Part shown: positions 30,641 to 56,424 of the stretch, piece by piece
Layout of the letters: every line of letters begins with the position of its first letter
Position numbering within the stretch: the first letter of the stretch is position 1
Assembly: GCF_030295385.1 (NCBI RefSeq)
Contig: NZ_AP027079.1
Span: 2,852,001 to 2,916,000, forward strand
From: Geothrix oryzae
Lineage (GTDB): Bacteria > Acidobacteriota > Holophagae > Holophagales > Holophagaceae
Length of the DNA stretch: 64,000 bases
Reading direction: 5' to 3'
Position numbers and translations under genes: made by a program
The notes under the pieces: model-generated
Database searches by the model: none
Told to the model about the DNA's origin: nothing
Seen by the model: only the letters and a program-made list of their open reading frames with translations

Positions 30641-30644
30641 CTTG

Positions 30645-32611: not shown

Positions 32612-33639
32612 GCATCACCCCGGGCTTTCTTCAATTCCTCATGCCGACCCACATCCACCCAGTCATCCCCGATCGGGAACACACCCACAGGTTCACCCTG
32701 CGAGAGGCAATTGTCGACCACCCAGGTGATGGGAGTCGGACCGAGCGGACGAAGCCTTGGGGGAACCGCCGGGTCGACGACATAGACGCCCGCGCTGACC
32801 GGGAAACTAACCCTTGGTTTCTCCTGCCAGCCATAAACCCGGTCCCCTTGCAGGTCCAAGACTCCGAATGGGACTTCATGGATGTGCGTGGAGTAGCCGA
32901 CCGTCACCATGTTTCCAGATGCGGTGTGGTGATCGATCATGCGGCCCGCATCGAAATTCGTGACGAGGTCCCCGTTCATTACCAGCAGAGGTGAGGTAAT
33001 GCTCGGAGGCAACAGGCCGAGTGCCCCCCCGGTACCCATGGGTACGGTTTCCTTGATGTATTCGATCGAGCACCCGAACTTTTTGCCGTCTTCGAAATGG
33101 GCTTCAATGATTTCGCTCAGGTAATGTGTTGCGAGAAAAATCTTCCGAAATCCTGAGCCGACCAAGTGGAGGACAATGCGCTCCAGGATCGGGCGTCCGG
33201 CGACCAGAATCATGGGTTTCGGGATGGTGGCCGTGATGGGATGCAACCGGGTCCCAAAGCCGCCACAGAGGATGAGGGCTGCATTTTCTCGTGGCTTGGT
33301 CCCGAGCAGATCGTCTATCGTATGCAGCCCGAGAAGTTCCATATTGGGGCCAAGAATGGGTATCTGTTTGAACCCGCGGGCTTTCATGATGTCGAGGACT
33401 TCGGCTCGATTCATCTCTGGGGACACCCATGTGAACCTGGTTTGCATGGCCTTCCCAACTGGACCTTCAAACCCGAGCCCGCTCAGGAGAGCTCGCCGAA
33501 GGTCCCCATCGGTCATTAGCCCAACCAGCTTGGAGTCCTCTACAACGAGGACAATTTCAAGGCCGGCTGCATCTAAGGCCTTCATTCCCTGGATGATGGA
33601 ATCCATTGGGCTGACCACGGGAATGTCTGAACGATACAT
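32608..33639 (-). CDS. ptmE: CBS-domain nucleotidyltransferase (PtmE-like glucosamine-1-phosphate guanylyltransferase)
   Basis: Probably makes the GDP-hexosamine that opens the GDP-linked legionaminic acid pathway, as shown for PtmE in Campylobacter. The ATG at 33639 has a GAGGAA site; a start at 33681 has no such site. Of 343 residues, the first 115 or so are two CBS repeats (VLVVEDSKLVGLMTDGDLRR, then QIPILGPNMELLGLHTIDDL), which may sense a nucleotide. The rest is a sugar-phosphate nucleotidyltransferase with LILCGGFGTRLHPITATIPK, the Asp of VMNGDLVTNFD, and GWQEKP. It heads the minus-strand leg operon. Uridylyl- or mannose-specific activity cannot be ruled out. Confidence 0.85.
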   Translation of the reverse strand: MYRSDIPVVSPMDSIIQGMKALDAAGLEIVLVVEDSKLVGLMTDGDLRRALLSGLGFEGPVGKAMQTRFTWVSPEMNRAEVLDIMKARGFKQIPILGPNMELLGLHTIDDLLGTKPRENAALILCGGFGTRLHPITATIPKPMILVAGRPILERIVLHLVGSGFRKIFLATHYLSEIIEAHFEDGKKFGCSIEYIKETVPMGTGGALGLLPPSITSPLLVMNGDLVTNFDAGRMIDHHTASGNMVTVGYSTHIHEVPFGVLDLQGDRVYGWQEKPRVSFPVSAGVYVVDPAVPPRLRPLGPTPITWVVDNCLSQGEPVGVFPIGDDWVDVGRHEELKKARGDA

Positions 33640-33777
33640 CACGGTTCCTCTTGAGACCTTTTGGACAGCAATCAACCTCAATCATACCATTCGCAGTTCG
33701 GAGGCAATCACGAGAACCCATCGAAGTCGTCTGGCTCGCTGTGTTGGAATATTAAACAACTTGTTTATAGCTAACAC

Positions 33778-34281
33778 ATGTTAGTGCCAATCCGGTTGTT
33801 CACCCGAAACCCGGGAAGCCGAAAGCGCCAACAAACAGCGTTCGCGCAGTCTCAAATGAACCTCCTCAGTTCAGCAAAGCCCTGCTCTGCCAATCGAGTT
33901 GTACTAATCCGGCGAGTGCTTCAGGAGGGCTGGACCATTCAGGCTGCGACCGCCTTCATCGGGATCAGCGCTCACAGCACCTGTCGCTGGCTGGCCCACT
34001 TCAAGGTCGAGGGCTCGGAAGGCCTCCGGGACTGCTCCAGCCACTCGTATCGCCTATCGCGAAGCCACAAGTCTACCATCCAAGAACCAGCGGCAAGGCC
34101 GAGCGGCCGATCCAGCCCCCTCCGAGAGTGGGCTTATGGCCTCATCCGGCTGAGTCCAGACAAACGAAGCCATGCCCTCAGCGCCTGCCTCAATTACTAC
34201 AATCACCACAGGACCCGTTTCGGCCCTCAGCAGTCAGCCCCAGTCGCAAGGCTGAACAACCTTGTTGCCATCGACAGCTAG
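33778..34281 (+). pseudogene. IS481-family transposase relic with internal deletion
   Basis: The open frame is intact (167 codons) but joins only the two ends of an IS481 transposase. The N-terminal helix-turn-helix part (IRRVLQEGWTIQAATAFIG, then RWLAHFKVEGSEGLRDCSS) runs straight into the C-terminal end (REWAYGLIRLSPDKRSHAL, NYYNHHRTRFGPQQ, RLNNLVAIDS). The DDE catalytic core of roughly 150 residues is missing. It is a dead element placed just upstream of the leg operon in the opposite direction. Confidence 0.85.
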
Positions 34282-40422: not shown

Positions 40423-41532
40423 CTATTTTCTCGCCGGTCTTGCTGTCAATGGGATCCAAATAAAGATAGCGAATCTGAAAGATAGGGTCTGGCATCCCCC
40501 ATGATTCGCCCGATAGTTGTGCGGAATCCAGATCGGTTGGGGTGGCGTCGCTGGGCTGGGCGGAGGCGACCGAAGTTCAACCCAGCGACTCGCGAACTCC
40601 TCTGGGGGAAATCCCCCGAGGGTGCGGTGCGGTTTGTAGTGGTTGTCGTCACGGAGCCATCCTCGGGCCACCTGCCGGCCTACTGCAAGGCCCGTGAACC
40701 AGTTCTCGTTCACGCACTCATCCCTGAACCGCCCGTTGGAAATTAGGTGCCGGACCAGGCCCCTGCTGGTGCCGCCGCTGCTCGAAGGCCCTGGGGTGAA
40801 CTCTGGGCCATCGTCGTTCACCAACAACTCTGGAGGTCACGGCTTCCACATCAGGTCCTCCAGCGCCCTGGCCATCCGCAGGCTCGGCAGGCTGAAGTCC
40901 ACTTCGATGGCCAGCCTCTTCCGCGCAAAGATGTCCACCACATTCAAGGTCCGGATGGCTCGCCCTTCGGCCAATGGCTCCGACACGAAGTCCATCGCCC
41001 ATTTCTGATTGGGCTTCACGGGCGGCTGCAGTGCCGGTGCGGAACCCTCTTCATCCGCTTCCGGATTCACTTCCTCACCCGCAGGCCCTTCTCGTTGCAG
41101 AGCCGCTCCACCCGCTCGTGATTCACCATGACCCCCTCCCGGCGTTCGTTACCGGCAGGTGCATCTCCGCATGGCCTCCCACCCGGCAGGCCCGCCTAAA
41201 AGCCCCGCTGGCCTTCCGTAGGCCGGCGGGCTTCAGAAATTTTTTAGGAAAAGGGACCTCAGCGCTTCGATATCGAGATCCCGCTGTCCAAGCCTCCGCG
41301 GGGGCTTCGCAATCTCGATCTCCAGATGCTTGGGGCGCTTTGCGTCCGAGACCTCAAAGCCGCCGAACTTCGCCTTCCACCGGTAGAAGGCCTGGTCCGA
41401 GACTCCCAGGCGACGCAGATATCCGCTGTCTTTGTCCCCGCCTCGTGCTCCTTCAGCGCGTGGATGATCTGCTCCTCGCTGAACCCACTCTTTCTCATGG
41501 CTCCTCCTCTTCCTTATTGAGGTGGATTCCAC
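40423..41532 (-). pseudogene. Degenerate IS3-family element (OrfA and OrfB relics)
   Basis: On the minus strand OrfA starts at 41498 (MRKSGFSEEQIIHALKEHEA) and continues after a one-base loss near 41415 in another frame as RRLGVSDQAFYRWKAKFGG to the end near 41233. OrfB follows in pieces: VNHERVERLCNEKGLRVRK ending in a stop near 41090, then NQKWAMDFVSEPLAEGRAIR (first catalytic Asp), and from 40827 NDDGPEF (second Asp) and FRDECVNENWFTGLAVGRQV (Glu region) with RPHRSLGG-like KPHRTLGG. Several frameshifts make it inactive. It is of the same group as the relic at 20644-20826. Confidence 0.88.
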
Positions 41533-41622: not shown

Positions 41623-42891
41623 TTATCTGAATCTTGCCGTAGACACATTAAGTTTAGGTTTTAAGTAAAAATAAATAATTACAGCATAAACAAGAGCCAA
41701 TTCATAAAAGACACTTTTCAATTGAGAACTGGTGATGCCCATGGCCGGAAATACGAATAAACTCCCAAGAACGATAAAATGGTGAAACATGATTACCCCA
41801 TTTTTAGGGCGAAACTTGGTTAGTAATGAACCATAGGCTAGAATACAAAAAAGTGTGCCCATATACCCAAAGTCAAACAGCAAATCAGAAATCAAGCCAT
41901 TGAATCCATCAAAATGTGTGCCCCACAGAGTGTATAATTTGGCTTCAACTCGCCCTGCTGGATAATCAATTAAATTCATTTTGTTTCCGAATGTCAACGG
42001 CAAGGATGCTGACAGTTCTCCATAAAGAGGATTAAATACATACAAAGACATTACTTCATTACAATTTTTGTACCATTGCGAAAAATAATCAAGGAGGCTC
42101 AGTAGAATCGGGTTTTCAATGCGAGATTGGGTTGATGCACTTTCAAGGTACTGCAGGGCATCTACAAATCGGCTGGCCGTGATAATATAGAACACCATCG
42201 CAGCTAATCCGGCGACAAGAGCACTGGCAAACTTCATTATATGTTTTGCTTTAGTTGCAAACTGTGGATAATAAAATGGAACATACACAATATACATAAC
42301 GAAGAATACCAAAAATCCGGATCGACTGAAGTGGGTGATCCCGTTTAATATGATGTTCAATGAGAATAGAAGTGCAAGTATAGAATATTTATAGTTCCTC
42401 TGTTTTAGGTAGTAAAAATGTAATGGCACTAAAAAATAGGATGTAGGACACAAATATATCGCCAGCAACCAAAGTAAATGATTGATTGGCATCTGCCCGA
42501 TCACCCCCTCACTGTCCATACCATTTTTAAATTCCGAATAATCCGTCACATGCGTAAAAACATAATAAATAAAGATTAGGCAGACAACGAATACTACAGA
42601 ATTAATAAGCAAGAGAATCTTGGCCAAACGATTCACTCTATCCGGGTCGGGGTCAGCGATGAGTGATGTATATTTAAATCGATTCCACGGCATAAACAGA
42701 AGGGTAAGCATCGCAGCCATGAAAACCAAATTAAATACTTTAAAGTAAGTGTCCGGGAAATAATCATAGCCAATCACGACTGCACAAATCAATGAAATTG
42801 CATAAAGAATAACAAGAAAGCTTCCCGGGGAAGCTCCCCTTTTCAGATGGAATAAAAAGTATATTAAAACAAAATAAATCAGTAACAACAT
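41623..42891 (-). CDS. wzy: O-antigen/repeat-unit polymerase (Wzy-like)
   Basis: A 422-residue inner-membrane protein with about 11-12 hydrophobic segments and one larger external loop (about 265-340, YFSQWYKNCNEVMSLYVFNP and following), the layout of oligosaccharide repeat-unit polymerases. It would link repeat units on the periplasmic side. Sequence identity within the Wzy family is too low for motif proof, so the call rests on topology and on its place next to a Wzx-like flippase. The gene is strongly AT-rich, as Wzy genes often are. It follows the flippase gene by 52 bases on the same strand. Confidence 0.75.
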   Translation of the reverse strand: MLLLIYFVLIYFLFHLKRGASPGSFLVILYAISLICAVVIGYDYFPDTYFKVFNLVFMAAMLTLLFMPWNRFKYTSLIADPDPDRVNRLAKILLLINSVVFVVCLIFIYYVFTHVTDYSEFKNGMDSEGVIGQMPINHLLWLLAIYLCPTSYFLVPLHFYYLKQRNYKYSILALLFSLNIILNGITHFSRSGFLVFFVMYIVYVPFYYPQFATKAKHIMKFASALVAGLAAMVFYIITASRFVDALQYLESASTQSRIENPILLSLLDYFSQWYKNCNEVMSLYVFNPLYGELSASLPLTFGNKMNLIDYPAGRVEAKLYTLWGTHFDGFNGLISDLLFDFGYMGTLFCILAYGSLLTKFRPKNGVIMFHHFIVLGSLFVFPAMGITSSQLKSVFYELALVYAVIIYFYLKPKLNVSTARFR

Positions 42892-42943: not shown

Positions 42944-44242
42944 TTATCTCCGCCTTAGGAGCCATGGTAGCTCATAGAGTGTGTTGGCGTACCCGAAGAC
43001 CAACAAAAATGTTGTAATAGATACCAGAACACTCGAATATGCCGCCCCCATGATACCAAATCGCTTAACCAAAACAATCGTAAGCGCCATTTGAAGTAGT
43101 GATGAGCCAAATGTGATGGAGCCTAGAACTTTTGTCTTTTTGCGATAAAATATATATCCAGAAACAATGGAATACATTCCTTCAAAAAACAGCGTCAACA
43201 TGAGGAATGGGAGTACCCTAAGGGCGCCCAAATAATCACCCCTAAAGAATATCGGAATTATCCAGCTCATCATAAAATAGCACCCAAAACAAACCGTTAT
43301 CAATAGACACGAAAATAAATACGATATTTTGACAAGCTTTAGCTTCAACTCTATACTTTCGGTATGACTGACTTGATCGATCAAGCTTAAGTCTTTGTAC
43401 ATTAAAGGAGAATAGGCATTAAAGAATGACCCCGTAAAAATCCCTATTACACTGACTAAAGTCAGAGCAATAGAATATACCCCATTTGCGGATAAGCTCA
43501 CGATATTCGTTAGAATGATTTTATCCACTCCCGACTTGAACCAGAAGGATAAAGTGTGTGGCAACAATGGAAGACCAAAAGAAAAAGCCTCTTTTATGTT
43601 TTTCACATCGATTTTTGTAAAAATATGTCGTTCTTTCATTAGCAACCACAAACTAACTATTACAGAAAGAATGCTACCCCCAACCATGCTTAAAACTCTT
43701 CCCTGCCAATTCCACTTCAGAATCACCACAAAATAGATGGCCAGAAGACCTGCGATCAAGGCCTGAAATATCTGAATACTACTAAACATTATTGGGCGCT
43801 TCTCCATTCGCAATACTGAGGTATGCAACATGAAGATGCTTGTTGCAAGCGAGGAAACGATCGCAAGGATCTGCCACAGTAATGAAATACCAAGCCGCTG
43901 AGCAATCAAATCTGAAAATATAACAACGACCAAAAGACACGCAAATGCCAATAAACATATTAAATAAATTAAATTTGAAATGTAAGACGCTCGCTCTTCT
44001 TCCTTCAGAGAAAAGTACGATACCGTCAATGCCGAATAAGTGTTCAAGGCGCAAATGGCAGTGAAAATTTGTACAGCCACGCTAAAATTGGAGAGAATAC
44101 CAAAGTCCGTTGTCGTTAAGTACTTTGTTACTATCGGAAGCAAGAAAAATGGAATGGCTTTGCCAATGGCATCCCCCCCAGTGTAGAGCAAGGTGGATTT
44201 GGCCAGTGGACTATTGATACTTTTAGATAAAAATTTAATCAT
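42944..44242 (-). CDS. wzx: Lipid-linked repeat-unit flippase (Wzx-like, MOP superfamily)
   Basis: Would move the finished undecaprenyl-linked repeat unit across the inner membrane. From the ATG at 44242 it has 432 residues and about 12-14 membrane helices. The N-terminal MIKFLSKSINSPLAKSTLLY is followed by IPFFLLPIVTKYLTTTDFGI, the typical opening of Polysacc_synt/Wzx proteins. The middle SGVDKIILTNIVSLSANGVY and FFNAYSPLMYKDL segments are also characteristic. The longer frame to 44386 starts with polar sequence; an ATG at 44260 is another option. AT-rich, paired with the Wzy-like gene. Confidence 0.87.
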   Translation of the reverse strand: MIKFLSKSINSPLAKSTLLYTGGDAIGKAIPFFLLPIVTKYLTTTDFGILSNFSVAVQIFTAICALNTYSALTVSYFSLKEEERASYISNLIYLICLLAFACLLVVVIFSDLIAQRLGISLLWQILAIVSSLATSIFMLHTSVLRMEKRPIMFSSIQIFQALIAGLLAIYFVVILKWNWQGRVLSMVGGSILSVIVSLWLLMKERHIFTKIDVKNIKEAFSFGLPLLPHTLSFWFKSGVDKIILTNIVSLSANGVYSIALTLVSVIGIFTGSFFNAYSPLMYKDLSLIDQVSHTESIELKLKLVKISYLFSCLLITVCFGCYFMMSWIIPIFFRGDYLGALRVLPFLMLTLFFEGMYSIVSGYIFYRKKTKVLGSITFGSSLLQMALTIVLVKRFGIMGAAYSSVLVSITTFLLVFGYANTLYELPWLLRRR

Positions 44243-44459
44243 GTTGTAATTATCGACCATCCATTTAACATCGAACGCGTTGAGGCTGTGACCCACCCTC
44301 TGGATGGACATGCCTGTGCTTCCCGATTTTGGGTCCTTCCTGCGCACAATCTTATCAGGATAGATGGACCAAACCACCCTAACCAAGCACCCACAGGCTA
44401 CTGGTCCACGATTCGGCCCGGTTTTCAGCCGTCTTGCACTCCATTTAAAACAAGAAAGA

Positions 44460-44876
44460 CTGGAGTCTACAGCTCTTCACCGTCGATCTCGGTCATCCCC
44501 TGGAGTTCTTCGACATGCCGCGCCGTGCTGGCGTGTTCGTTATCGAAGTTCTTACCGTTCTGGAGTTCGCTCCAGGTGGCTCGATCTCCAGGTTGCGAAG
44601 TGGGCCATGCCGATGCCCGTGGTGATCTGGCGACTCAGAGATGGCCTTCCCCTTGAAACCGTACGCGTAGTCCACGCGGCCTTCCAGGACCGCCTCGGTG
44701 AGGGTCTGCTCGTTGATCTCCTTGAAGCGGTGCTTGTCCACCTTCTCCTCAACGATGAGCGGGGTGCCGCCCCCATCGGTGATCAGGCCCCAGCATATCA
44801 TCTGGCAGATGATCACCTCGATGTGCTTATTGCTGATGACCACACCCTGGGCCGGTAGACCTCCTGCACTTCGCTG
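44460..44876 (-). pseudogene. Decayed duplicate of the 3' end of rpoC
   Basis: This segment mirrors the last part of rpoC at about 58883-59440, in the same direction. Shared pieces are AQGVVI, KHIEVII, the run [16 protein letters not shown], then [11 protein letters not shown], and the terminal coding bases around the TAG at 44467-44469. About 117 bases are missing between the NEQ and LTEA codons. There are also one-base losses (for example near the [10 protein letters not shown] equivalent) and many substitutions. It cannot encode a functional product. It ends the polysaccharide locus and begins 14 kb upstream of the true gene in map order. Confidence 0.9.
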
Positions 44877-44910
44877 AATAAATTCGTTGGAATTTCCGGT
44901 CAATTCAAAA

Positions 44911-44983
44911 GGAACGGTGCAGGGACTTTGATCCTTATAAATTAATTACCGATTTTTGGGACCTTCCGCTACTGCACCGTTCC
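44911..44983. repeat. 12-bp inverted repeat pair
   Basis: GGAACGGTGCAG at 44911-44922 and its exact complement at 44972-44983, 49 bases apart. The right copy is the last coding part and stop region of the lipoprotein gene. It may be a weak terminator stem or a recombination footprint beside the rpoC fragment. Confidence 0.5.
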
Positions 44984-47900
44984 CACCACGGTCACGGACA
45001 CGGGGGAGGCCCCAGCGGTGTGGAAAGTGGGGCTGAGCAGGACGCCGGTGGCGGGGTCGATGGCGCCGACGGCGATCCGGTTGCCCCAGTAGTCGGTCAT
45101 GAAGCCCCACAGGCCGTTGCGGCTGACCATCAGGTTGTCCGAGCCGGTGCCCCCGAACAGCGCATAGGTGCTGCCGGTCAAGGGGGAGAGGGCACCCGTG
45201 ACCAGATTCAGGGCGTAGGCTGCGTAGTCGTTATCCGTGGTGGAGAGGGTGATGTAGATGACGGGCTGGGTGGGGTTGGCGGAGACCCCGTGGAAGGTAT
45301 CCGCCTGGGTCGTGCCGGTGTCGGTGGCGGCCAGTGGCATGAGGCCGCCGGTCTGCAGATCCAGGTAATAGCCGTAGACGATGCACTCCTGGGCCGCGCC
45401 CCCGGCGGCACCTTCGCTCTTGGTGAAGAGGTACTCCCCGCTGTGGCTGAGGGCCAGGGCCAGCGGACCGGTGCCGGTGGGCAGGGTGGTGCCGCCGTTC
45501 AGGCTGAGGGCCCCGGTGCCGGGATTCAGTTCGAAGACCTGCAACTGGTCGGAAGTCCGCCCCACCGTGAAGAGCCACCGGCCAGAGGGGTGGATCAGCA
45601 CCTCGCCCGTGCCTCCGGAGGCGGCGACGGAACCCAGGGCGGTCAGGGCTCCGCTGACGGCGTTCAGACCATAGGAGGAGATCAGGCCATCGCACCGCAC
45701 ATAGACGAACTGGCCCGTGGGATCCACGGTCGAGGCCCAGGGATTGGGGTCCGTGGGATAGGCGGCCACTTCCGTCAGGTCGCCCGTGGTGGAGTCGATC
45801 TTAAAAACGGTGAGGGTATTCGGACGCTGGTTGAGCCCATCCCCGTTGACCGCGAAGAGGAACTTGCCCTCGGGGTCGCTGGTGACATGCAGCGCGGGGG
45901 TTCCGTCATCGAAGGGCGAATTGCCCAGCTCAACGAGCGCGCCGGTGGTCTCATTCAGGGAGAACCCGGAGATGCCGCCGCCGGAGTTCGCCACATACAC
46001 GAACTTGCCGGTGAAAGCCTTCACCGTGACCGTCGCCACGGCCGTGGTAGTGGCGCCGACGGCATTGGTGGCCGTGAGGGTGTAGGTGGTGGTCGCCACG
46101 GGGAACACGGCGATCTGACTACCGCTGGTGACGGGACCCACGCCGTGATCGACGACGCCATCCCCCGTGAAGGTGAAGGTCAGCAGGCTCCCCTGGCCCT
46201 GGGTGATGGTGGTGGGGCCCGCCTTGAAGGTGCTGATGTTCGGCAAGGCGCCCACGGTGACCGTCACCGTATCGGTGGTGGGATCCCCGGCCGGATTGGT
46301 GACCGTCAAGGTATAGGTCGTGGTGCCGGCGGGGTGGACCACGGAGCTGCCGCCGCTGGTGACCGCCCCCACGCCCTGGTTGATGAGGCCGGTTCCTCCC
46401 GCGAAGGCATAGGAGAGGGTGGAAGCTCCACCCGACGCCACATCGGCGGGGCTGGCCGACAGCTGGGAGATGGTCGGGAAAGGTACGATGGCGCTGCTGG
46501 CGCTGCCCGTGGCGGAGGTTCCAGCGGCATTGGCAGCCTTGCAGCTCAGGAATACGGACCCCGTCCCCCCCGCGGAGAAGGTGATGTTCGTGCCCGTGGT
46601 GCCAGAAGTGATCGTGCCGCCGGAAATGGTCCAGGTCAGCGTCATCCCGCCCTGGGCGGGCACCGAGGCGGCATAGCCGCCCTTGCCGGCGGTCACATAG
46701 GCGGGAGTCGAAATGACCGGTGCCGTGGGTGCCGGGGCGATGGCACTGCTGGCGGTTCCCGGGGCGGAGTCCGTTCCAGCCAGATTGGTGACGGTGCAGC
46801 TGAAACCCACGGTGCCGGTGGCCCCCGCGCGGAAGGTGAGGATGTTCGTTCCGTTCCCGGACACGATGCTGCCGTTGGTCAAGGTCCAGGCGTACGAGGA
46901 GCCGGACTGGGCGGGAACGGACTGGGCCGTGCCCACCTGATTGGCCGTGATGTTGGCCGGGACGGTGAGGGACGGCGTGGTCGGGGCCGGCGTGATGGTC
47001 GAGCTGGCCGCCCCAGGGGCGGAAGCCGTGTTGGCCGTATTGGTCACGGTGCAGCTGAAGGTCACAAAGCCCGACCCCCCTGCCGTGAAGGTGATGCTGG
47101 CCGTTCCCGCGCCGGCCGTGACCGTGCCGTTGGTGACGGTCCAGGCATAGCTGGAGCCAGCCTGGGTCGGAACGGAGGCGGTGTACCCGGCCTGGCTCGC
47201 GGTGACATAGGCTGGCGCGGTGACCGCGGGCGTCGCCGGCGCAGCCACGATGGTGCTGCTGGCAGTTCCCGTGGCGGTAGTGGACGCCGCATTGGTCGCC
47301 ACGCAGCTGAGGCTCACAGAGCCCGAGGCTCCGGCCGTGAAGGTCACGCTGGTGCCGGTGCTGCCCGAAGTGATCGTGCCGTTGGTGATCCTCCAAGCGA
47401 GGGTCATTCCGCTCTGGGCCGGCGTGGAGGCTGTGTAGCCTGCCTGCCCGGCCGTGACATTCGCCGGTGCCGTGATGACCGGGGCCGCCGGGACGGCCAC
47501 GATGGCCGCGCTGGCCGTTCCGGGCGCCGAGGCGGTGCTGGCGGCGTTCGTGACCACGCAGCTCAGTCCGACGGAACCCGTGGCGCCTGCCGTGAAGGTG
47601 ATGCCGGCCGTTCCCGCGCCAGCCGTGACTGTGCCGTTGGTGACGGTCCAGGCGTAGCTGGAGCCCACCTGGGCCGGAACGGAGGCGGTGTACCCGGCCT
47701 GGCCTGCCGTGACATAGGCTGGCGCTGTGACCGCGGGCGTCACCGGCGCAGCCACGATGGCGCTGTTGGCATTCCCCGTGGCAGCGGTCGACGCCGCATT
47801 GGTGGCCACGCAGCTGAGGCCCACGGAGCCCGAGGACCCGGCCGTGAAGGTCACGCTGGTGCCGGTGCTGCCCGAAGTGATCGTGCCGTTGGTGATGCTC

Positions 47901-49138
47901 CAGGCGAACGACATGCCCGCCTGGGCGGGCGTGGAGGCCGTGTAGCCTGCCTGTCCGGCGGTGACATTCGCGGGTGCCGTGATGACCGGGGCCGCCGGGG
48001 CGGCCACGATGGTCGCGCTGGCGGTACCGGCCGTGGAGGGGGTGCCGGCGGCGTTGGTGACCACACAGCTCAAACCGACGGAACCCGAGGCGCCGGCCGT
48101 AAAGGTGATGCCGGGGGTGCCCGCGCCGGCTGTAATCGTGCCGTTGGTCGCAGTCCAGGCGTACGAGGAACCCGCCTGAGCCGGGACCGAAGCCGTGTAA
48201 CCGGACCGTCCCGCCGTGACATTCGCCGGAGAAGTGATCACCGGCGAGGTGGGGGGGGCCACGATGGCGGCGCTGGCCGCCCCGGCCGCCGAGGAGGCCC
48301 CGATCGTATTGGTCGCCACGCAGCTCAAGGCGACGGAGCCCGCAGTCCCCGCACTGAAGGTCACGGAGGCACCCGTGGTGCTGGAGGTGATCGTGCCGTT
48401 GGTGATGGTCCAGGCGAACGACATGCCCGCCTGGGTGGGCGTGGAGGCGGTGTAGCCCGCCTGACCCGCGGTGACGGTGGCCGGCAGGGTGATCACTGGC
48501 GTCGAGGGGACCGCCACGATGGCTGAGTTGGCGATGCCAGCCGCGGAGGCCGTGCCTGCGGCGTTGATGACGACGCAGCTCAACCCGACGCTTCCCGTGG
48601 TACCTGCCGTGAAGAGGATGCTGGGGGTCCCCGCGCCGGCAGTGATCGTGCCGTTGGTGAGGGTCCAGGCATAGCTGGATCCGGCCTGGGCCGGAACGGT
48701 GGCGACATAGCCCCCCTGCCCGGCCGTGACCTGGGCCGGAGCCGTGACGACGGGCATGGTGGGTGCGGGCACCACGACCACCTGGGCCGTGGCGGTGGCC
48801 GGCACACCGGCGCTGTTCGTCACCGTGAGGGTGTAGGTGGTGTCGGTGGAAGGGCTCACCGACACGGCGACGCCGCTGGCGAGGGCGCCGACGCCCTTGT
48901 CCACTGTGCCGGTCCCGTTGGCGAACACGCCGGTCAGGGTCGTGGAGGCCCCGAGCGTGATAGGGCTCTTGGCGGCCGCGAAGCTGGTGATGGTCGGGAC
49001 CGGAGGGGGTGGAACCACCGTCGTCCCGCCGCCGCCGCCTCCCCCGCAAGCGACCTGCAGCAGCGTCCCCAGCCCTCCCAGCGCGATGGCCACGAGAGCC
49101 TCACGAAAGGTGTTCCGCCGGATGAGGGTAGAGGACAT
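44969..49138 (-). CDS. Giant lipoprotein with nine Ig-like repeats and a beta-propeller
   Basis: A predicted surface lipoprotein of 1389 residues. The ATG at 49138 has a GGAG site and opens a lipoprotein signal ending LLQVAC, followed by a run of seven Gly. An Ig-like domain comes first, then nine tandem repeats of about 84 residues (about 130-890), then two more domains like the first (GASTLSYAFAGGTGLINQGV type). The C-terminal 330 residues form a YVTN/lactonase-like beta-propeller (GKFVYVANSGGGISGFSLNE, FLFAVNGDG, GRWLFTVG, GEYLFTKS). The nine repeats come in two kinds, one with GSSYAW and GAGT, the other with GMSFAW and STGTS, in the order ABABABAAB. It is GC-rich like the core genes. Function is unknown; adhesion or ligand display is an inference. 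Confidence 0.85.
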   Translation of the reverse strand: MSSTLIRRNTFREALVAIALGGLGTLLQVACGGGGGGGTTVVPPPPVPTITSFAAAKSPITLGASTTLTGVFANGTGTVDKGVGALASGVAVSVSPSTDTTYTLTVTNSAGVPATATAQVVVVPAPTMPVVTAPAQVTAGQGGYVATVPAQAGSSYAWTLTNGTITAGAGTPSILFTAGTTGSVGLSCVVINAAGTASAAGIANSAIVAVPSTPVITLPATVTAGQAGYTASTPTQAGMSFAWTITNGTITSSTTGASVTFSAGTAGSVALSCVATNTIGASSAAGAASAAIVAPPTSPVITSPANVTAGRSGYTASVPAQAGSSYAWTATNGTITAGAGTPGITFTAGASGSVGLSCVVTNAAGTPSTAGTASATIVAAPAAPVITAPANVTAGQAGYTASTPAQAGMSFAWSITNGTITSGSTGTSVTFTAGSSGSVGLSCVATNAASTAATGNANSAIVAAPVTPAVTAPAYVTAGQAGYTASVPAQVGSSYAWTVTNGTVTAGAGTAGITFTAGATGSVGLSCVVTNAASTASAPGTASAAIVAVPAAPVITAPANVTAGQAGYTASTPAQSGMTLAWRITNGTITSGSTGTSVTFTAGASGSVSLSCVATNAASTTATGTASSTIVAAPATPAVTAPAYVTASQAGYTASVPTQAGSSYAWTVTNGTVTAGAGTASITFTAGGSGFVTFSCTVTNTANTASAPGAASSTITPAPTTPSLTVPANITANQVGTAQSVPAQSGSSYAWTLTNGSIVSGNGTNILTFRAGATGTVGFSCTVTNLAGTDSAPGTASSAIAPAPTAPVISTPAYVTAGKGGYAASVPAQGGMTLTWTISGGTITSGTTGTNITFSAGGTGSVFLSCKAANAAGTSATGSASSAIVPFPTISQLSASPADVASGGASTLSYAFAGGTGLINQGVGAVTSGGSSVVHPAGTTTYTLTVTNPAGDPTTDTVTVTVGALPNISTFKAGPTTITQGQGSLLTFTFTGDGVVDHGVGPVTSGSQIAVFPVATTTYTLTATNAVGATTTAVATVTVKAFTGKFVYVANSGGGISGFSLNETTGALVELGNSPFDDGTPALHVTSDPEGKFLFAVNGDGLNQRPNTLTVFKIDSTTGDLTEVAAYPTDPNPWASTVDPTGQFVYVRCDGLISSYGLNAVSGALTALGSVAASGGTGEVLIHPSGRWLFTVGRTSDQLQVFELNPGTGALSLNGGTTLPTGTGPLALALSHSGEYLFTKSEGAAGGAAQECIVYGYYLDLQTGGLMPLAATDTGTTQADTFHGVSANPTQPVIYITLSTTDNDYAAYALNLVTGALSPLTGSTYALFGGTGSDNLMVSRNGLWGFMTDYWGNRIAVGAIDPATGVLLSPTFHTAGASPVSVTVVGTVQ

Positions 49139-49211
49139 GGGCGACTCCCTGAGCCCCGGGTTGCGATCATCCCGAGGGAAATCCGTGATTTGAAGGTCGT
49201 GGTGCAAAGAA

Positions 49212-49239
49212 ATGGGGAAGGAATCGCTCCCTTCCCCAT
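49212..49239 (-). terminator. Hairpin upstream of the giant lipoprotein gene
   Basis: Ten-bp stem (ATGGGGAAGG at 49212-49221 with its complement at 49230-49239) and an eight-base loop, 74 bases before the lipoprotein start. It could be a terminator or a leader structure. No clear T-run follows. Confidence 0.4.
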
Positions 49240-49284
49240 CCGTGGTTTGATGCCATCAAGCAGGTTGGGTACTGGAACCGCAGT

Positions 49285-49310
49285 CCCCGGGCGGATCGCT
49301 CCGCCCGGGG
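49285..49310 (-). terminator. GC-rich hairpin after the multicopper oxidase gene
   Basis: Perfect 11-bp stem (CCCCGGGCGGA at 49285-49295 and complement at 49300-49310) with a four-base loop, ten bases beyond the stop of the oxidase gene. It is a likely transcription end, although the T-run is weak. Confidence 0.6.
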
Positions 49311-49319
49311 GGGAACGGG

Positions 49320-52300
49320 TTACTGTCCGTTGAACCTCAGCCCGGTCACATTGGTGATCAGGTTGGTGTAGCTGAAGGTCGCGGGCGTCCAGACATGCAC
49401 GCCGCCATCCGAAGCCGAGAGGCTTCCGGTCCAACCGGTGGGGACCTGGAGCGTGAAGTTGCCATTGACATCTGTGACCGTGGAGCCACCCGTGCTGAGG
49501 GTGATGGTCACGCCGGGAAGTCCGACATTCTGTCCGTTGACCTGGATCCTGGCCCGTCCGGAGATGGACTGGATCGTGGTGAAGTTCTGACTCAGGGCGC
49601 CGGCCAAGGGCGTGCTGACGGTCACGGAGGCGGGGCTGAAGGAGTAGCCGCGCAGGGTGGGCGTGATGGTGCCCGTCCAACCGGCCCGGACATAGAGGCT
49701 GTAGGCACCGGTGGCATCCGTGTTGACTGCGCTGCCGCCGTTGCTGAGGGCCACTCTCACACCCGCCAGGCCTGCACCGTTGGAAGTGATGGTGCCGGAT
49801 ACCAGGAAGGTCTGGCCTGCGGTGAAGTTCTGGCCCGCAGGGCTGGCGGTGACATTGGTCAGGTTCCGCTGGCCGGGAGAGAAGACCCAGCCCACCAGGG
49901 ACGGCGTGACGGATCCGCTCCAGCCGGAGGGGACATAGTGCGTGTAGAGACCATTGACATCCGTGACGGCCGTGCCGGCGCCGTTGCTGAAGGTCATGGT
50001 GACGCCGGCCAGAGGCACGGGCGGCACGGCATTGGTGGTGACGAGGCCGTAGACCGCGATGGCGTTGACGGCCGTGAAGTTCTGGTTGGGCTGATTCACG
50101 GTGCTGCCCACCAGGCTCAGGGACAGCGGCGTCAGGAAGTAGCCCGCCTTGGCGGCCGTGATGGTGCCGGTGTAGGGCGAGGCGACGACCACGGCGTAAT
50201 TGCCATTGGCATCCGTAGAGACCGTCTGGCCCGTGCTGAAGGTGATGGTCGCACCGGAGAGGCCCACCGCATTGAGGGTGACCTGGCCCGAGACGGTGAT
50301 CACGGCGGTGGCGGCAAAGTTCTGAGCCGTCTGGTCCACCGCGGTGGCGGCGTAGGTCCGGGAGGCCGGGGTGAAGATGAAGCCGGCCATCGAGGGCGTC
50401 AGCGTGCCGCTAAAGGGGGACGGCAGGGTGAGGCTGTAGCTGCCGGCGGCGTCCGTGGTGGCGGTCTGGCCGGTGCTGGCGGTGAGGGTGACGCCGGCGA
50501 GGCCGGTGGCGCCGTTGGTGACCGTCCCGGAGAGCGTGACGATGGCGGCGGCGTTGTAGTTCTGGACGGTCTGGTCCACGGTGACCGCGGCATAGGAGCG
50601 CGAGGCCGGGGTGAAGGCGAAGTCCAGCTTGGAAGGCGTGATCGTGCCGGTGAAAGGCGAGGGCAGAACCATCGTGTAGTTGCCGGCGGCATCGGTGGTG
50701 ACGGTGGAGCCGGTGCTGGCCGTGAGGGTGACGCCCGCCACCGGGGTGGCGCCATTGGCGATGGTGCCGGAAATGGCCACCACGGCCGTGGCCGCGTAAT
50801 CCTGGGCCGCCTGGTCGGTCACGACATTGCTGTAGGTGCGGGAAGCCGGAGCGAAGATGTAGCCGGCCAGGGTGACGGTGGCAGTGCCAGTCCAGCCGCT
50901 GTTGACGACGGCGGAATAAGCGCCGAGGGCATTGGTGACGGCGGAGCCGCCTGCATTGCTGAGGGTGACGGTGGCACCGGCCAGGGGCAGGCCGCCGACA
51001 GTCACGGTGCCGCTGAGGGTGGCCACGGCGCGGGCCTGGAAGTCCTGGCCCGTCTGGTTGGCGTTGAGGGCAGTGTAGGTGCGGCTGGCGGGGGTGAAGG
51101 CAAAGCCCGCGAGTGCCGGGGTGATGGTGCCGGTCCAGGCATAGGGAACGGCCACGGTGTAGGCGCCTGCGGCGTCGGTGGTGGCGGTGGCGGTGGTGAC
51201 GCCGGCGCTGGCGAAGGTGAGCAGCACGCCGGCCTTGGGCAGGTTGCTGACGCCATCGAAGGTGAAGACGGTGCCGGAAATCTGGACCGTGCTGGGGGTG
51301 TTGACCCCGGCGATGTTGGACGGAGCGGAGTCGCCCGCCTGGTTGTAGGCGATGACCTGGTAGTCGTAGAGCGTGCCGGGCACCACGGTGAGGTCGCTGT
51401 AGCTCCTCACATTGGGAACGGCGGTGGCGATCGTGGCGAAGGGATCGGTCCCCGAACGGCGCTGGATGGTGAATCCGGTTTCGTCCGTGGCGTTGTCCGT
51501 CCAGGCGAGCTCAGCCCGGCTGGGGGCCGACAGGGCGGCCGTAAGTCCGGTGGGGGCGGAGGGGGCTGAAGTGGCGACGGTCAGCACCATGGGGCGCATG
51601 AAGTCGTTCTCTTCGTGGCCGAGGATGTGGCAGTGCCACACATATTCCCAGCCGAAATCCTTGGCGGCGTTGCTCACGCTGATGGGATTGCCATCCACCG
51701 GGTTGGTGACGGTGATGTTGACATTGTCAGGCTGCACGACATTGGGCGAGCGCAGGCTGTTGGGCAAGGGGAAGGGCAGCCGGGGGGACAGGGGCCGGAA
51801 GGCGACGACGATGTCCTCCAGCGGGTTCATCTTGACGGTTTCCTTCCAACCGATCTCGTTGGCGTCGGGCAGGCGCACGGCGCCGTCCCAGCCCACGCGG
51901 TTGACGATCTGCACATCGAAGAGATGGAAGTGCACGGGGTGGGTGTCCACGCCGTTGTGGGTGATCTTCCAGTACTGGGTGGTGCCGTCCACCAGCTGCT
52001 CGGTGGCGGGATCCGCGTAGCCGAGGGGGATGGTGGTCTGGATGTTGAAGTTGGTGAAGGGCATTTCCACGCCGAGGGTGGCGTTCATGCGGCCGTAGTC
52101 CAGCTCGAACAGCTCCTGGATGGCCTTGGAACCCATGTAGGGCTGGATGAGGTCGCCGTTCTCCATGGCGGGGAAGGGCGTGCGGAACTGCCAATCCTGG
52201 ATGCGGGCATAGACATCCTTGGCCACGGCCTTGTTCAGGGCGCTGTTGTAGGCGACCTGGGGCACGATGGGCAGGTGCTGGGACTCGGCGAAGGCGCCGT

Positions 52301-54467
52301 TGGAAGTCGCGGTGGACTGGAAGGCCGCGTTGAGGGCTGCCATGTCGAAGGCCGGATCGGGCGTGGCCGCGGCCACCTCGAACAGCATGAGGGTGCGGGT
52401 GTTGGGGCCGAAGCCCGGCAGGGTGGGCGCCGCGCCACCGGTGTCGGTCTGGTCGGGGCAGCCGGTGTAGTAGTCGAAGCGCGTATCGAAGGCGGGCACG
52501 GGGGCCGGGGAGTCGTTGTAGAGGATGAGCTTCTGGCCCGCGAAGGCCGAGAAGTCCACGATCACATCGGCGCGTTCCGCGGGGCCGAGGAAGAGGGCTT
52601 TGTCCTGCACATTGAGCACCACGATGTCCCGGCGGTTGTAGTTGTAGCCGACGGGCTGCGGGGCGATCACCACGGGCGAGGGGAGGTAGCCGCTCTCATT
52701 GCCGATCTGGATGAGGGAGGGGCCTGCGGTGGTGGGATCCGGCACGCCGCCGAGACGACCATCCGTGGGCCAGGTGGCCGGCCAGGTGGGATCGGCCGGA
52801 TCGTGGGGAACGGCCGGCACCATGGAGACTTCCGTGCCCGAGGCGTCCGCCTTGAAGAAGGACAGGTTCCAGAACCGGTCGTTGGCGGCGTTCAGGATGC
52901 GGAAGCGATAGGCCTTGGGCTGGACGGTGATCTTGGGATAGGGCGTGCCGTTGATCACCGGCGTATCCATGAACGCTTCGGGGACCAGCGAGGGGTTGGG
53001 CGTGCCGGGGTACTCGGTGCCGTTGGGATCACCGGGAATGGGCTCCGCGCCGTGCTGCAGGCCGGCGGCGGCGGTCACCGGGGGCCAGAACCACGGGCCG
53101 TAGTCCCACCGGCCCATGCCGTTGGCGCCGGAGATGTCGGCGGGGTTCTGGTTGACCATGTAGACATGGGGATACCAGAGGCTGCCATCGCCGCCGTACT
53201 TGGTCACATCCCAGGTGGGGTCGGTGCCGCCCACGACGCCGACGGTGCCCAGGGTGGCGGTGTTGACGAAGGTCTTGTCCTGGATGATGAGGGGGATGCC
53301 ATATCGGTAGACGCCGTTGGGATCGCCGTTGCTGGGGATGACGCCCGCGTTGATGAGCTTGTCGTCCACCGGGTCGACGATCATGTACCCGGCGGCCTCG
53401 CCGGCATACACATTCAGGCGGGTGAGACCGAAGGAGTGGTCGTGGTAGAACATGAACCGGCCGCTCTGCTGGTTGGTCCAGTAGTAGGTGGCGATGCCGT
53501 CCCCGGGGGTGCCGGCGCCCATGTCGGGCACATTCTGGAAGGAGGCACCCTTCTGGTAGCTGGTGACCTCCCCGGCGGGCGTCACCCACTGGTGGGGCGT
53601 GCCGTCGCTGATCCAGGGGTTGAGTCCGCCGTGGAGATGGAACTCGGCACGGTTCTGGGTGTAGAGCCCAGTACCGATGGCGGCGTTGCCCAGCGGGCCC
53701 ACACCGGCGCCCATCATGGTGGTATCCACCGGGATGAACAGGTCACCTGCGGTGCCCGTGGGCAGCTGGTTGAACATCTTCACGCGCACAGGCCGATCGC
53801 GCTTGGCGATGATGACGGGCCCGAGGTAGTTCGAGCTGTTGGCGCCGTTCGCCGTGCTCTCGGCGGAGGGATTCAGGTCCCGGTAACCGCGGAGGCGGGT
53901 GGGGTCCAGCTCGGAGTGCAGCTTCTGGGTGTACTGCTCGACGGCGATCTCGTAGTAGTCGGAGCCGTCGTTGAAGACGCCGGGAATGGGCTTGGCCACG
54001 GGGATGAAGTTCCCCAGGTTGTTGGCATTGGCGGCGCCCAGGCCCGGCAGCGTATCCACGAACTTGTGGATGGGCTTGGTGTTGTGCCAGTTGCTGGCGG
54101 TGCCGAACATGTAGTCGGGCTGGGCCAACTGGAAGCCGGGGCCGGGAACGGCCAGCTGTTCCACGCCCTTGGGGGCCAGGCCCGCGGTGCCCTTGGAGGC
54201 TAGCGCGTTGATCGGGTTCTGGCCCAGGGCCAGGGGATCGATCTTCCCGCCCTTGGCCTTGAGGGCAGCCTGCGTGCGGGCCGCGGCGGCCGCCCGGGCG
54301 TTGGCCAGGGTGCGCCGGCGGGTGGCCCGCTCGATGATGGCGTTCTTGTCGCCGCCCTTGGTGGGGGCCGCCGTGCGGTTGGCCACCTCGGTCGTGTCAG
54401 CCTGCAGGCCGAACCCCGTGAACAGGGCCACGGCGAGCGCCAGCAGACGGTTGAGCCTCTTCAGCAT
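49320..54467 (-). CDS. CotA-like multicopper oxidase with FN3 domain and eight carboxypeptidase-regulatory-like repeats
   Basis: A 1715-residue exported enzyme. It has a signal peptide (MLKRLNRLLALAVALFTGFG) and an AGGTG site. Copper ligands are all present: HLHG (His277, His279), HDH (His342, His344), HPVHFH (His843, His846, His848), and the type 1 motif HCHILGH with His945, Cys946, His947, His951 and axial Met957. This matches the CotA laccase/bilirubin-oxidase group. An FN3 domain (about 968-1060) and eight beta-sandwich repeats of about 80 residues follow, each with an SGTVxxNG start and a TDAxGxYT core. A linker rich in Ala and Arg lies at 40-75. It would oxidise metals or phenols, or take part in extracellular electron flow; the substrate is inferred only. 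Confidence 0.92.
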   Translation of the reverse strand: MLKRLNRLLALAVALFTGFGLQADTTEVANRTAAPTKGGDKNAIIERATRRRTLANARAAAAARTQAALKAKGGKIDPLALGQNPINALASKGTAGLAPKGVEQLAVPGPGFQLAQPDYMFGTASNWHNTKPIHKFVDTLPGLGAANANNLGNFIPVAKPIPGVFNDGSDYYEIAVEQYTQKLHSELDPTRLRGYRDLNPSAESTANGANSSNYLGPVIIAKRDRPVRVKMFNQLPTGTAGDLFIPVDTTMMGAGVGPLGNAAIGTGLYTQNRAEFHLHGGLNPWISDGTPHQWVTPAGEVTSYQKGASFQNVPDMGAGTPGDGIATYYWTNQQSGRFMFYHDHSFGLTRLNVYAGEAAGYMIVDPVDDKLINAGVIPSNGDPNGVYRYGIPLIIQDKTFVNTATLGTVGVVGGTDPTWDVTKYGGDGSLWYPHVYMVNQNPADISGANGMGRWDYGPWFWPPVTAAAGLQHGAEPIPGDPNGTEYPGTPNPSLVPEAFMDTPVINGTPYPKITVQPKAYRFRILNAANDRFWNLSFFKADASGTEVSMVPAVPHDPADPTWPATWPTDGRLGGVPDPTTAGPSLIQIGNESGYLPSPVVIAPQPVGYNYNRRDIVVLNVQDKALFLGPAERADVIVDFSAFAGQKLILYNDSPAPVPAFDTRFDYYTGCPDQTDTGGAAPTLPGFGPNTRTLMLFEVAAATPDPAFDMAALNAAFQSTATSNGAFAESQHLPIVPQVAYNSALNKAVAKDVYARIQDWQFRTPFPAMENGDLIQPYMGSKAIQELFELDYGRMNATLGVEMPFTNFNIQTTIPLGYADPATEQLVDGTTQYWKITHNGVDTHPVHFHLFDVQIVNRVGWDGAVRLPDANEIGWKETVKMNPLEDIVVAFRPLSPRLPFPLPNSLRSPNVVQPDNVNITVTNPVDGNPISVSNAAKDFGWEYVWHCHILGHEENDFMRPMVLTVATSAPSAPTGLTAALSAPSRAELAWTDNATDETGFTIQRRSGTDPFATIATAVPNVRSYSDLTVVPGTLYDYQVIAYNQAGDSAPSNIAGVNTPSTVQISGTVFTFDGVSNLPKAGVLLTFASAGVTTATATTDAAGAYTVAVPYAWTGTITPALAGFAFTPASRTYTALNANQTGQDFQARAVATLSGTVTVGGLPLAGATVTLSNAGGSAVTNALGAYSAVVNSGWTGTATVTLAGYIFAPASRTYSNVVTDQAAQDYAATAVVAISGTIANGATPVAGVTLTASTGSTVTTDAAGNYTMVLPSPFTGTITPSKLDFAFTPASRSYAAVTVDQTVQNYNAAAIVTLSGTVTNGATGLAGVTLTASTGQTATTDAAGSYSLTLPSPFSGTLTPSMAGFIFTPASRTYAATAVDQTAQNFAATAVITVSGQVTLNAVGLSGATITFSTGQTVSTDANGNYAVVVASPYTGTITAAKAGYFLTPLSLSLVGSTVNQPNQNFTAVNAIAVYGLVTTNAVPPVPLAGVTMTFSNGAGTAVTDVNGLYTHYVPSGWSGSVTPSLVGWVFSPGQRNLTNVTASPAGQNFTAGQTFLVSGTITSNGAGLAGVRVALSNGGSAVNTDATGAYSLYVRAGWTGTITPTLRGYSFSPASVTVSTPLAGALSQNFTTIQSISGRARIQVNGQNVGLPGVTITLSTGGSTVTDVNGNFTLQVPTGWTGSLSASDGGVHVWTPATFSYTNLITNVTGLRFNGQ

Positions 54468-54735
54468 GGTGCACCTCGCTTTGGAAATGGAACTGAATGG
54501 AAGATCGGAACGGCGAAGACCAGGTAGAGCCGTCAGCCCTCACAGCCCTGAAAACGGGCCGGGTGCGACGATGTGTCGTAGGTGAATGAAAGGTTCAGCT
54601 GAAACCGGATCCATACCTATGGGGAGTTCCCCCCATCGGATGGGTAGGAATCATGTAAATGCGGGTCATCCGACCCGACCCTCTCAGGCTCGGGAAGGCG
54701 ACCCGCTCATCGCGAAGGCCCGCAAGGGCCCGGGA

Positions 54736-56361
54736 TCAGTAATAGAGTTCGGCGCTGGCCAGGTAGCCGAAGCCACCGCCACCCGCGACCAGCACCTTCC
54801 CACCCGGAAGGGCCGTGGCCGTATGCGCCTCGCGCAGGGCCGTCATGGGGCCCGTGGCGGTGCAGAGGCCCGTGGCCGGATCGAAGAGTTCGGCGGCGGA
54901 GAGCACCGCGCCCGGCGAGCCGGCCCCGACGCCACCGGCGATGTAGACCGTGCCTGTGGGCAGGAGGACGGCCGTGTGCCAGTGGTCCCGGGCCGTGACC
55001 AGGCTGCCCGACGCCGCGAAGGCGCCCGTGGCGGGGTCGTACAGCTCGGTGACGAGCGTCGCGGCGCCGCCGACGACAAGCACCTTGCCGTTCGGCAGCA
55101 GGGTGGCGGTGTGGTAGGCCCGGGCCGAAGCCAGGCTGCCCGTGGCCGTGAAGGTCCCGGTGGCCGGGTCATAGAGCTCGGCCGTCGCCAGCGAGCTGGA
55201 CCGGAAGCCGCCGGCCAGGAGGACCTTGCCGTTGGCCAGGAGGGTGGCGGTGTGGGTGGCCCGGCTGGCGAGGGGCGCATTGGCCGTAGCCGCGAAGGTG
55301 CCCGCGGCGGGATCGTAGAGCTCGGCCGTGGCGAGGTACGAGCCCAGGTTGCGCCCGCAGGCCACCAGCACCTTGCCATTCGAGAGCAGGGTCGCCGTGT
55401 GGTCGGATCGGGCCGCCCCCAGGCTGCCCGTGGCCGTGAAGGTCCCGGTGGCCGGGTCGTAGAGTTCGGCACTGGCCAGGGCCGTGCCGAAGCTGCTGCC
55501 CCCGCTGATCAGGACCTTGCCGCTGGCGAGCAGGGTCGCCGTATGCGACTGCCGGGGCGTGACGAGGCTCCCGGTGGCCTTGAAGGTCCCCGTGGTTGGG
55601 TCGTACAGCTCCGCGCTGGCGAGGCTGAAGGTCCCGTCATAGCCCCCGACCACCAGCACCTTGCCGTTGGCGAGCAGGGTGGCCGTGTGGAAGGCTCGGG
55701 CCGCGACCAGGCTGCCCGTCACGAGGGAAGTGCCCGGGCCGCCCTTGGCCACCACCGTGAGCTTGGCCGCGCTGCTGGTGACGCTGCCGCCGAAGGCGTC
55801 GGAGACCTGGACGCTGAAGGTGCTGGCATCGTCCGCCAGGACGGCGGCCGGTGTGGTGTAGGAGGCGGAGGTGGCGCCGGAAATGGCGACGGCGTTCCTC
55901 AGCCACTGGTAGGTGAGGGTGCCCGTGCCCGTGGCCACGACGGTGAAGGTGGCCGTCTGGCCCACCACGATGGACTGGTCGGCCGGCTGGGTGGTGATGG
56001 TGATGGGAAGGATGGGGTCGTTGACGGTGATGCTGAGGCTCACCGTGGCGCTGCCGGCGCCGTTGGTGCCCGTCACGGTGTAGCTGGCGGCGGCGGAGGC
56101 GGCGGTGGGCGTCCCGGAGATCACGCCTGACTTGGTGTCGAGGGCCAGGCCCGCCGGCAGGGCGGGGCTCACGGAGTAGGCGTCGATGGCGCCGCCGCCA
56201 TGGGTGGGGCTGTTCGGCGCGATGGCCGTGCCGGTGGTGTAGATCGCCGGGTTGGTGCCGTAGCTGAGGCCCGTGGGCAGCTCGACCGTCTCGCGGCACC
56301 CCAGCCCGAGCAGGGCCAGGCCAAGGAACATCGCCCACAACCCGCGCCCGATCGCACGCAT
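54736..56361 (-). CDS. Kelch-repeat lipoprotein with Ig-like domains
   Basis: A 541-residue predicted lipoprotein (signal ending LLGLGC) from the ATG at 56361, which has a GGGGTG site. A putative-Ig domain ([20 protein letters not shown]) and a PKD/Ig-like domain ([20 protein letters not shown]) fill the first 215 residues. The rest is about six to seven Kelch-type blades of about 48 residues, each with a consensus like [23 protein letters not shown] and NGKVLVAGG. It would form a beta-propeller. It lies 64 bases after the cytochrome-fusion gene and 268 bases before the oxidase gene, same strand. No enzymatic site is seen. Confidence 0.85.
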
Positions 56362-56424
56362 GAACACCCCGGTCAGAAGAAGGAGAGCACCACGGAAGAA
56401 GGATAGATCATACGGGGTTTCCGA

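Follow-up and report, generated by a model that had tools for sequence, protein, structure and literature searches.

A decayed copy of the rpoC 3' end between a redox gene block and a polysaccharide locus in Geothrix oryzae

The window, meaning the whole stretch of DNA analysed here, comprises 64,000 nucleotides of the Geothrix oryzae genome (G000). Downstream of rpoC it carries a redox block, a fragment that repeats the end of rpoC, and a polysaccharide locus. The features are listed in the order in which they follow rpoC, with positions counted from the first letter of the window.

58890-63113, minus strand: intact gene (ORF) that we take to be rpoC, 1407 aa, the source of the fragment; the same protein (100%) occurs in the sister genome G002
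58128-58715, minus strand: block gene for a SCO1/SenC protein (Pfam)
56425-58200, minus strand: block gene of the periplasmic binding protein family (Pfam Peripla_BP_6)
54736-56367, minus strand: block gene for a Kelch-repeat protein (Pfam)
49320-54467, minus strand: block gene for a multicopper-oxidase-type protein with CarboxypepD_reg repeats (Pfam Cu-oxidase_2)
44969-49207, minus strand: last block gene (ORF), with repeats (Ig-like by eye) and a lactonase-type beta-propeller (Pfam Lactonase)
44878-44968, no strand: AT-rich spacer of 91 bases that separates the fragment from the stop codon of the last block gene
44946-44967, no strand: imperfect direct repeat of about 22 nt, copy beside the Ig/beta-propeller gene
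44911-44922, no strand: 12 nt that recur in inverted form at 44972-44983, where the Ig/beta-propeller gene ends
44460-44877, minus strand: decayed rpoC 3' copy, a pseudogene fragment (BLASTN, alignment, self-comparison, own-genome search)
44320-44341, no strand: imperfect direct repeat of about 22 nt, copy on the wzx side of the fragment
42944-44269, minus strand: wzx-type flippase, the first gene after the fragment (Pfam Polysacc_synt)
41623-42891, minus strand: membrane protein by eye, wzy by position only, no Pfam match
25611-26588, minus strand: wzz-like chain-length protein (Pfam Wzz, 23.4 bits, under the cut-off of 25.5)

The block has a G+C content of 65-72%, like its flanks, and the DNA from 12 to 45 kb is mostly lower (38-63%). 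The fragment does lie at a composition boundary, as had been claimed earlier from the sequence, with 38% G+C at 42-44 kb against 67% at 45-46 kb. Transposase remnants are found in the polysaccharide locus at 40423-41532 and 33778-34281 (rve_3, HTH_Tnp_1; LZ_Tnp_IS481). NeuB, UDP-GlcNAc 2-epimerase family, PglD-like and dehydratase genes occupy 26627-33681, and we take this set to be a pathway of the nonulosonic-acid type. The gene on the other flank of the locus (9375-11729) is presumably pnp-like; in the relative G044 the pnp-like gene and rpoC are 19 kb apart.

The initial annotation described the fragment as a decayed rpoC 3' copy of about 140 residues in the same orientation, with a loss of about 117 bases, frameshifts and the stop codon region, and nucleotide alignment confirms this. 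The segment 44460-44877 repeats the 3' end of rpoC (58883-59437) on the same strand. A BLASTN comparison of 44200-45200 with 50000-64000 returned two plus/plus pieces, one with 173 of 190 identities (91%, E 1e-71) and the other with 204 of 264 (77%, E 2e-57). Comparison of the window with itself pairs 44690-44877 with 59248-59437 and 44460-44703 with 58883-59145. At its threshold of E 1e-4, and with pairs wholly within the repeat-rich block (44970-56400) left out, this comparison gave only two other matches, an inverted 108-base pair joining a transposase remnant (41304-41409) to 20701-20806 at 72% and a palindrome at 11745-11784. A search with the whole of rpoC against its own single-contig genome (3,265,981 bases, E 0.001) found only rpoC and the two pieces of the fragment. 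Of the 411 bases aligned (about 137 codons), 52 are substituted. The alignment also has a gap of 117 bases (39 codons) that carries CCTCA at each end, one 19-base loss, two 1-base deletions and one 1-base insertion. The stop codon is retained (minus strand TAG, 44467-44469). The motif CTCCAG, starting at the second base past the stop of the fragment, is common to the rpoC genes of G. oryzae and G002 and is absent at that position in the other 31 relatives compared.

The fragment is a functionless, dead copy of the lineage's own rpoC 3' end. Its differences from the intact gene are spread evenly over codon positions 1, 2 and 3 (18:17:17; uniform, p 0.98), and it has therefore decayed as non-coding DNA. 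Working rpoC genes, compared between G. oryzae and six relatives, differ by 1:2:15 to 9:4:39 (Fisher p <=0.001), with an excess at position 3 that is clear against G044 (1:2:15) and G008 (1:1:20); against G002 the changes are too few (1:0:4, p 0.056). Because the even spread is unlike that of working rpoC, nearly all changes in the fragment postdate the loss of gene function. The even spread and the frameshifts show no sign of purifying selection since the duplication. In a tree of 411 columns, the fragment, G. oryzae and G002 split from 29 other rpoC ends with an ultrafast bootstrap of 98, and alignment column 453 is T solely in these three; the 3'-end alignment behind the tree and the codon counts was made without G014 and G018. 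Hence, the fragment descends from the rpoC of its own lineage. The intact genes of G. oryzae and G002 differ at only 5 sites in this region. At four of the five, the base in the fragment is the most frequent one among the other 29 sequences, and at the fifth it is one found in 10 of the 29; no clear new change is shared with either genome at these sites. The divergence of the fragment is 0.139 per site, accumulated along one line. Fourfold-site divergence between G. oryzae and G002 ranges from 0.087 (rpoC) to 0.22 (Ig gene) and is spread over two lines. This dates the copy to roughly the time when the two species split, or earlier, at a resolution set by highly variable rates.

Short repeats were sought at the ends of the match, as had been advised earlier. 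An imperfect direct repeat of about 22 nt does flank the fragment, with a score equalled in 2 of 1000 shuffles and 8 of 2000 random pieces, and we treat its meaning as a lead only; a short exact att repeat was not found. At the end of the Ig/beta-propeller gene, a perfect 12-nt inverted repeat (44911-44983) is followed by TTTT, and G002 has a G+C-rich hairpin-like spacer at this place. The direct and inverted repeats mildly favour a complex joint. Within its own genome the AT-rich spacer (44878-44968) matches only itself, and the interval between fragment and wzx matches itself and short stretches at E 0.35 or worse. One account of such a joint is that the fragment was copied as templated filler from rpoC, 14 kb away, while foreign wzx DNA was being attached, and that both sets of repeats would have been made in the same event. 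The flanking direct repeat, the inverted copy of the Ig gene end and the illegitimate look of both fragment ends would suit this account. However, these repeats are short and were singled out in hindsight, and a random patch would rarely end less than 10 bases from the rpoC stop codon, and we regard filler synthesis as distinctly unlikely.

A one-off duplication was held earlier to be the simpler option, and the data are compatible with it. A fuller form of it would be a tandem duplication of the rpoC 3' end together with the block, with a new joint from the Ig gene end to the middle of rpoC, and later loss of the second block that left the rpoC end behind. The shared lineage of both copies, their orientation and order, and the CTCCAG past the stop that is common to the block-adjacent rpoC genes of G. 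oryzae and G002 would all follow from it. It also needs a second event that removed 13-14 kb and stopped about 7 bases past the rpoC stop, the joint consists of 91 bases of unrelated AT-rich DNA, and the self-comparison of the window found no further copy of block DNA outside 44970-56400. On this evidence a collapsed duplication is unlikely, though it and templated filler both stay live as rivals.

The 3' flank of the fragment was compared with rpoC spacers, wzz leaders and the rpoC-sco1 spacers of G. oryzae and G002, and nothing convincing was found (137 and 121 of 1000 shuffles as good in some comparisons, 41 to 269 of 300 in others). A native rpoC-wzx junction is therefore not demonstrated. 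A decayed terminator (CGGGCCG) drawn by eye behind the fragment was not borne out by a shuffle test. The predicted RNA fold of the joint is ordinary (z -1.49).

In G002 the wzz homologue directly follows the block, and the roughly 18 kb that separate the Ig gene from wzz in G. oryzae are missing there. This stretch contains the fragment, wzx, the wzy-like gene, the transposase remnants and the NeuB/Epimerase_2 sugar gene set. The wzx-wzy DNA has no match in 46 other genomes of the genus, and the best relative of the wzx protein in 77 family genomes, own counted, is 31% identical. The arrangement expected of a donor, rpoC directly before this wzx, was found in none of the 77 family genomes (protein) or 47 genus genomes (DNA), own counted in both. 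The wzz proteins of G. oryzae and G002 are 67.5% identical (aa), whereas the outer flank has 94% DNA identity over 10.5 kb (1122-11675). The polysaccharide locus has therefore been exchanged in G. oryzae, in G002 or in both, and the fragment lies at the edge of the exchanged region.

Gene order downstream of rpoC is polymorphic among the 33 genomes surveyed, own included. The redox block is present in 12 of them (own and 11 others). It comes first after rpoC in nine and stands behind another gene in G009, G065 and G062; the block of G013 has no SCO1 match. A wzz-like gene directly follows rpoC in 13 genomes, and in G012 and G007 wzz comes after other genes. Six genomes have neither block nor wzz in the sequence examined, which amounts to only 347 bases in G018 and to 1.5 to 12 kb in G022, G051, G056, G019 and G014, two of them spanning 7.6 and 12 kb. 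The survey therefore shows rpoC bordering the polysaccharide locus in many, though not demonstrably all, members of the genus. The far side of the block can be read directly in G002, where a spacer and then wzz follow cleanly, with no fragment. This spacer is homologous to rpoC-wzz spacers of species that have no block, namely those of G006, G048, G045, G008, G015 and G044 (0 of 300 shuffles as good in each case) and also to those of G058 and G001 (0 of 300). It matches the rpoC spacer of G018 weakly (4 of 300) and that of G012 not at all (101 of 300). The block is therefore an insertion or a loss at the rpoC-wzz junction. Identity between G. oryzae and G002 is 97.6% in rpoC and 96.7% in the multicopper-oxidase-type gene.

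The terminator-like hairpins behind rpoC (58820-58890 and the rpoC ends of relatives) fall into two classes, GGCCCGCTTCGGCGGGCC and GGGCGGGAGCGATCCCGCCC. The GGCCCGCTTCGGCGGGCC hairpin is found in all 12 block genomes and also in G007, which is without the block. The GGGCGGGAGCGATCCCGCCC hairpin is found at most wzz-adjacent rpoC ends, with G020 and G046 as exceptions. In Geothrix rubra, multicopper-oxidase-type, Ig, Kelch, SCO1 and binding protein genes occur in a different order (L108:10001-22656), and no rpoC or wzz match was found within the 25 kb examined. Such clusters therefore also occur away from rpoC.

The initial annotation considered that the two rpoC ends might be a bracket marking capture of the 45-58.7 kb block, and it named beforehand, as evidence to the contrary, relatives that have the block next to rpoC and no rpoC fragment beyond it. 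G002 and ten more genomes are of this kind, and the claim is not supported. None of these 11 has a second rpoC piece longer than 46 bases among the best eight or fewer candidates scored per genome. Across the 77 family genomes, second rpoC ends were found in G. oryzae and G012 only, together with an exact 32-base tip in G054; with at most eight candidates scored per genome, a very decayed piece could escape this search. Matches of 26-70 bases elsewhere, apart from the G054 tip, were taken as chance, and two full rpoC ends on two contigs of G073 were taken as mixed strains. The exceptional G054, which is outside the 33 surveyed genomes, bears the block and has its tip before the block, not beyond it.

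Capture by homologous recombination through rpoC, with the fragment as the recipient's rpoC end, would fit the geometry of the bracket, the age of the fragment and the presence or absence of the block at the rpoC-wzz junction among relatives. Additionally, the relatives most identical to G. oryzae over rpoB-rpoC are without the block where this can be judged. A tree built on the final 1.3 kb of rpoC, from which G012 and G064 were left out for length and in which G014 is also not included, joins G. oryzae and G002 with nine other block genomes and six others (support 75); this grouping might be expected had the rpoC end arrived with the block. Since the tree shows this though the closest rpoB-rpoC relatives are block-free, gain of the block on the G. 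oryzae/G002 branch is possible, only unmarked. To detect an rpoC 3' end of outside origin, identity to 19 relatives was followed over 16 kb in windows of 800 bases, and by eye it makes no jump as far as the rpoC stop. There is nothing foreign-looking about either rpoC copy, the block equals its flanks in G+C, and G002 carries the block without the fragment. In these comparisons no block-bearing relative had an rpoC remnant beyond the block and no imported-looking rpoC end was found, and with the 1.3-kb tree leaving some room, we consider capture through rpoC very unlikely.

Two relatives carry shorter pieces of the rpoC end. The order in G012 (L029:851-2977, contig C143) is rpoC, a terminator-like spacer, a wzi-type gene (Wzi family PF14052, E 3e-12), an rpoC tip of about 150 bases, a second terminator-like spacer and wzz. 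The tip is identical to the genome's own rpoC at 148 of 150 bases, and the two spacers are more diverged than the coding copies. One homologous and one illegitimate joint would be expected to give this arrangement, which is a fresh version of that of G. oryzae. In G054 (contig C114, L084:262-1820), a small gene that is hipB-like by eye and a HipA gene (PF07804) are followed by an exact 32-base rpoC 3' tip. The genes after this tip look like cysDN, the second with a GTP_EFTU domain, and the redox block lies about 7.6 kb beyond the tip. The bracket of G054 is incomplete because this genome has no assembled rpoC match. As in G. oryzae, part of the rpoC 3' end stands behind a different gene in both relatives (the wzi-type gene in G012, hipA in G054). 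Unlike the decayed fragment, their tips are nearly intact and measure about 150 and 32 bases. In G014 (contig C121, L036:11794-11827), a 34-base stretch 11 kb downstream of rpoC is identical to rpoC coding sequence at 31 of 34 bases (E 1e-8), too good for chance at that place; other short matches of 14-57 bases in that comparison were set aside.

Insertion of a mobile element at the end of rpoC by site-specific integration would agree with the position at the end of a gene and with nothing else. The tips in G012 and G054 have other lengths than the fragment, a Pfam scan found no integrase domain in the five block proteins, and the two copies in G. oryzae exceed 400 bases and are far diverged (77-91% identical), with no exact att repeat. 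Such an integration is extremely unlikely in our view.

The fragment is real, well resolved and ordinary in kind. We hold, with a cautious probably, that it is the decayed scar of an old junction at which a block-bearing half of the chromosome was joined to the polysaccharide locus by partly illegitimate recombination. It looks like a recombination scar of a known kind and not like a mobile element. The starting state would have been a polysaccharide locus attached to the rpoC 3' end, as in many members of the genus, with the redox block between them or absent. Around or before the split from G002, a half ending in rpoC and the redox block would have been joined to a polysaccharide locus that brought an rpoC 3' end with it. 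Homology may have served at one end of the exchange. On its block side (44878-44968) the fragment would have been joined illegitimately, and for this reason a spare rpoC end would have been left behind. Point mutation and slippage deletions would then have caused its decay. We infer from the scar which DNA came in, the direction of the exchange and its exact one-sided mechanism, and likewise that a donor of the same lineage with rpoC next to wzx existed.

In favour of this junction scar we count the even codon-position spread of the changes in the fragment, its grouping with G. oryzae and G002, the presence of wzz or of the block after rpoC in relatives, the homology of the G002 spacer to rpoC-wzz spacers, the divergence of the two genomes beyond the block next to a closely similar outer flank, and the fresh parallel in G012. 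A truncated copy of the gene that flanks the locus lies at the joint of block and locus. G002, which has no fragment, serves as the empty-site relative, with the reservation that it differs in its polysaccharide locus too. The donor arrangement is missing from the genomes searched, and the donor may be unsampled. As to which rpoC copy stems from donor and which from recipient, both group with G. oryzae and G002, whose five differences are all that the region offers. Against the scar stand the lack of resemblance between the 3' flank of the fragment and any tested rpoC spacer or wzz leader, and the lack of a genome with rpoC directly before this wzx. The G002 spacer, with no match to that of G012 and a weak one to that of G018, and the six of 33 genomes with neither block nor wzz after rpoC in the sequence examined also count against it. 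Both fragment ends may be illegitimate joints, as filler or a collapsed tandem duplication would give, and G002 is without the fragment although 0.139 changes per site suggest that the copy arose close to the split or earlier. There are also few cases (G. oryzae, G012 and G054).

Homology-facilitated illegitimate recombination in natural transformation was reportedly described by de Vries and Wackernagel in 2002. In that process one homologous anchor and one illegitimate joint would leave one intact and one truncated anchor gene. Unlike in the natural-transformation system, the event in G. oryzae is deduced from its scar in the sequence, not from a donor molecule or competence. Among the titles listed for open-licence PMC text, no paper deals with an rpoC end beside a polysaccharide locus. 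The capsule island of Neisseria meningitidis contains a truncated galE2 remnant (Region D') for which illegitimate recombination into galE has been proposed (PMC5349592). Like the fragment, this remnant is a shortened copy of a conserved gene from the flank of a polysaccharide locus, in that case one gained by horizontal transfer. It keeps the last 615 bases of the gene within an inverted repeat that permits inversion, whereas the G. oryzae fragment is a direct and heavily decayed copy. Additionally, the galE2 remnant is there related to the capsule-null (recipient) allele, whereas the fragment is of the same lineage as the intact rpoC (PMC5349592).

The reading of the locus is thereby turned around, with host-like DNA inside the rpoC bracket and foreign-looking DNA outside it. 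Candidates for cargo placed between rpoC and the polysaccharide locus are the redox block, wzi, hipA and two genes judged by eye, one for an ATPase and one cytochrome-like. The sequences of three genomes (G. oryzae, G012 and G054) may point to recurrent use of the rpoC end as a cargo junction in the genus. It is a tentative proposal, which we hold at less than even confidence, that the rpoC 3' end has served time and again as a homology anchor at which one-sided recombination placed cargo, with the tips of 32, about 150 and 418 bases as dated footprints. The findings suggest that the junction of rpoC and the polysaccharide locus is a place of cargo gain, loss and swap in the genus, and that spare ends of an essential gene may be read as a record of such exchanges.
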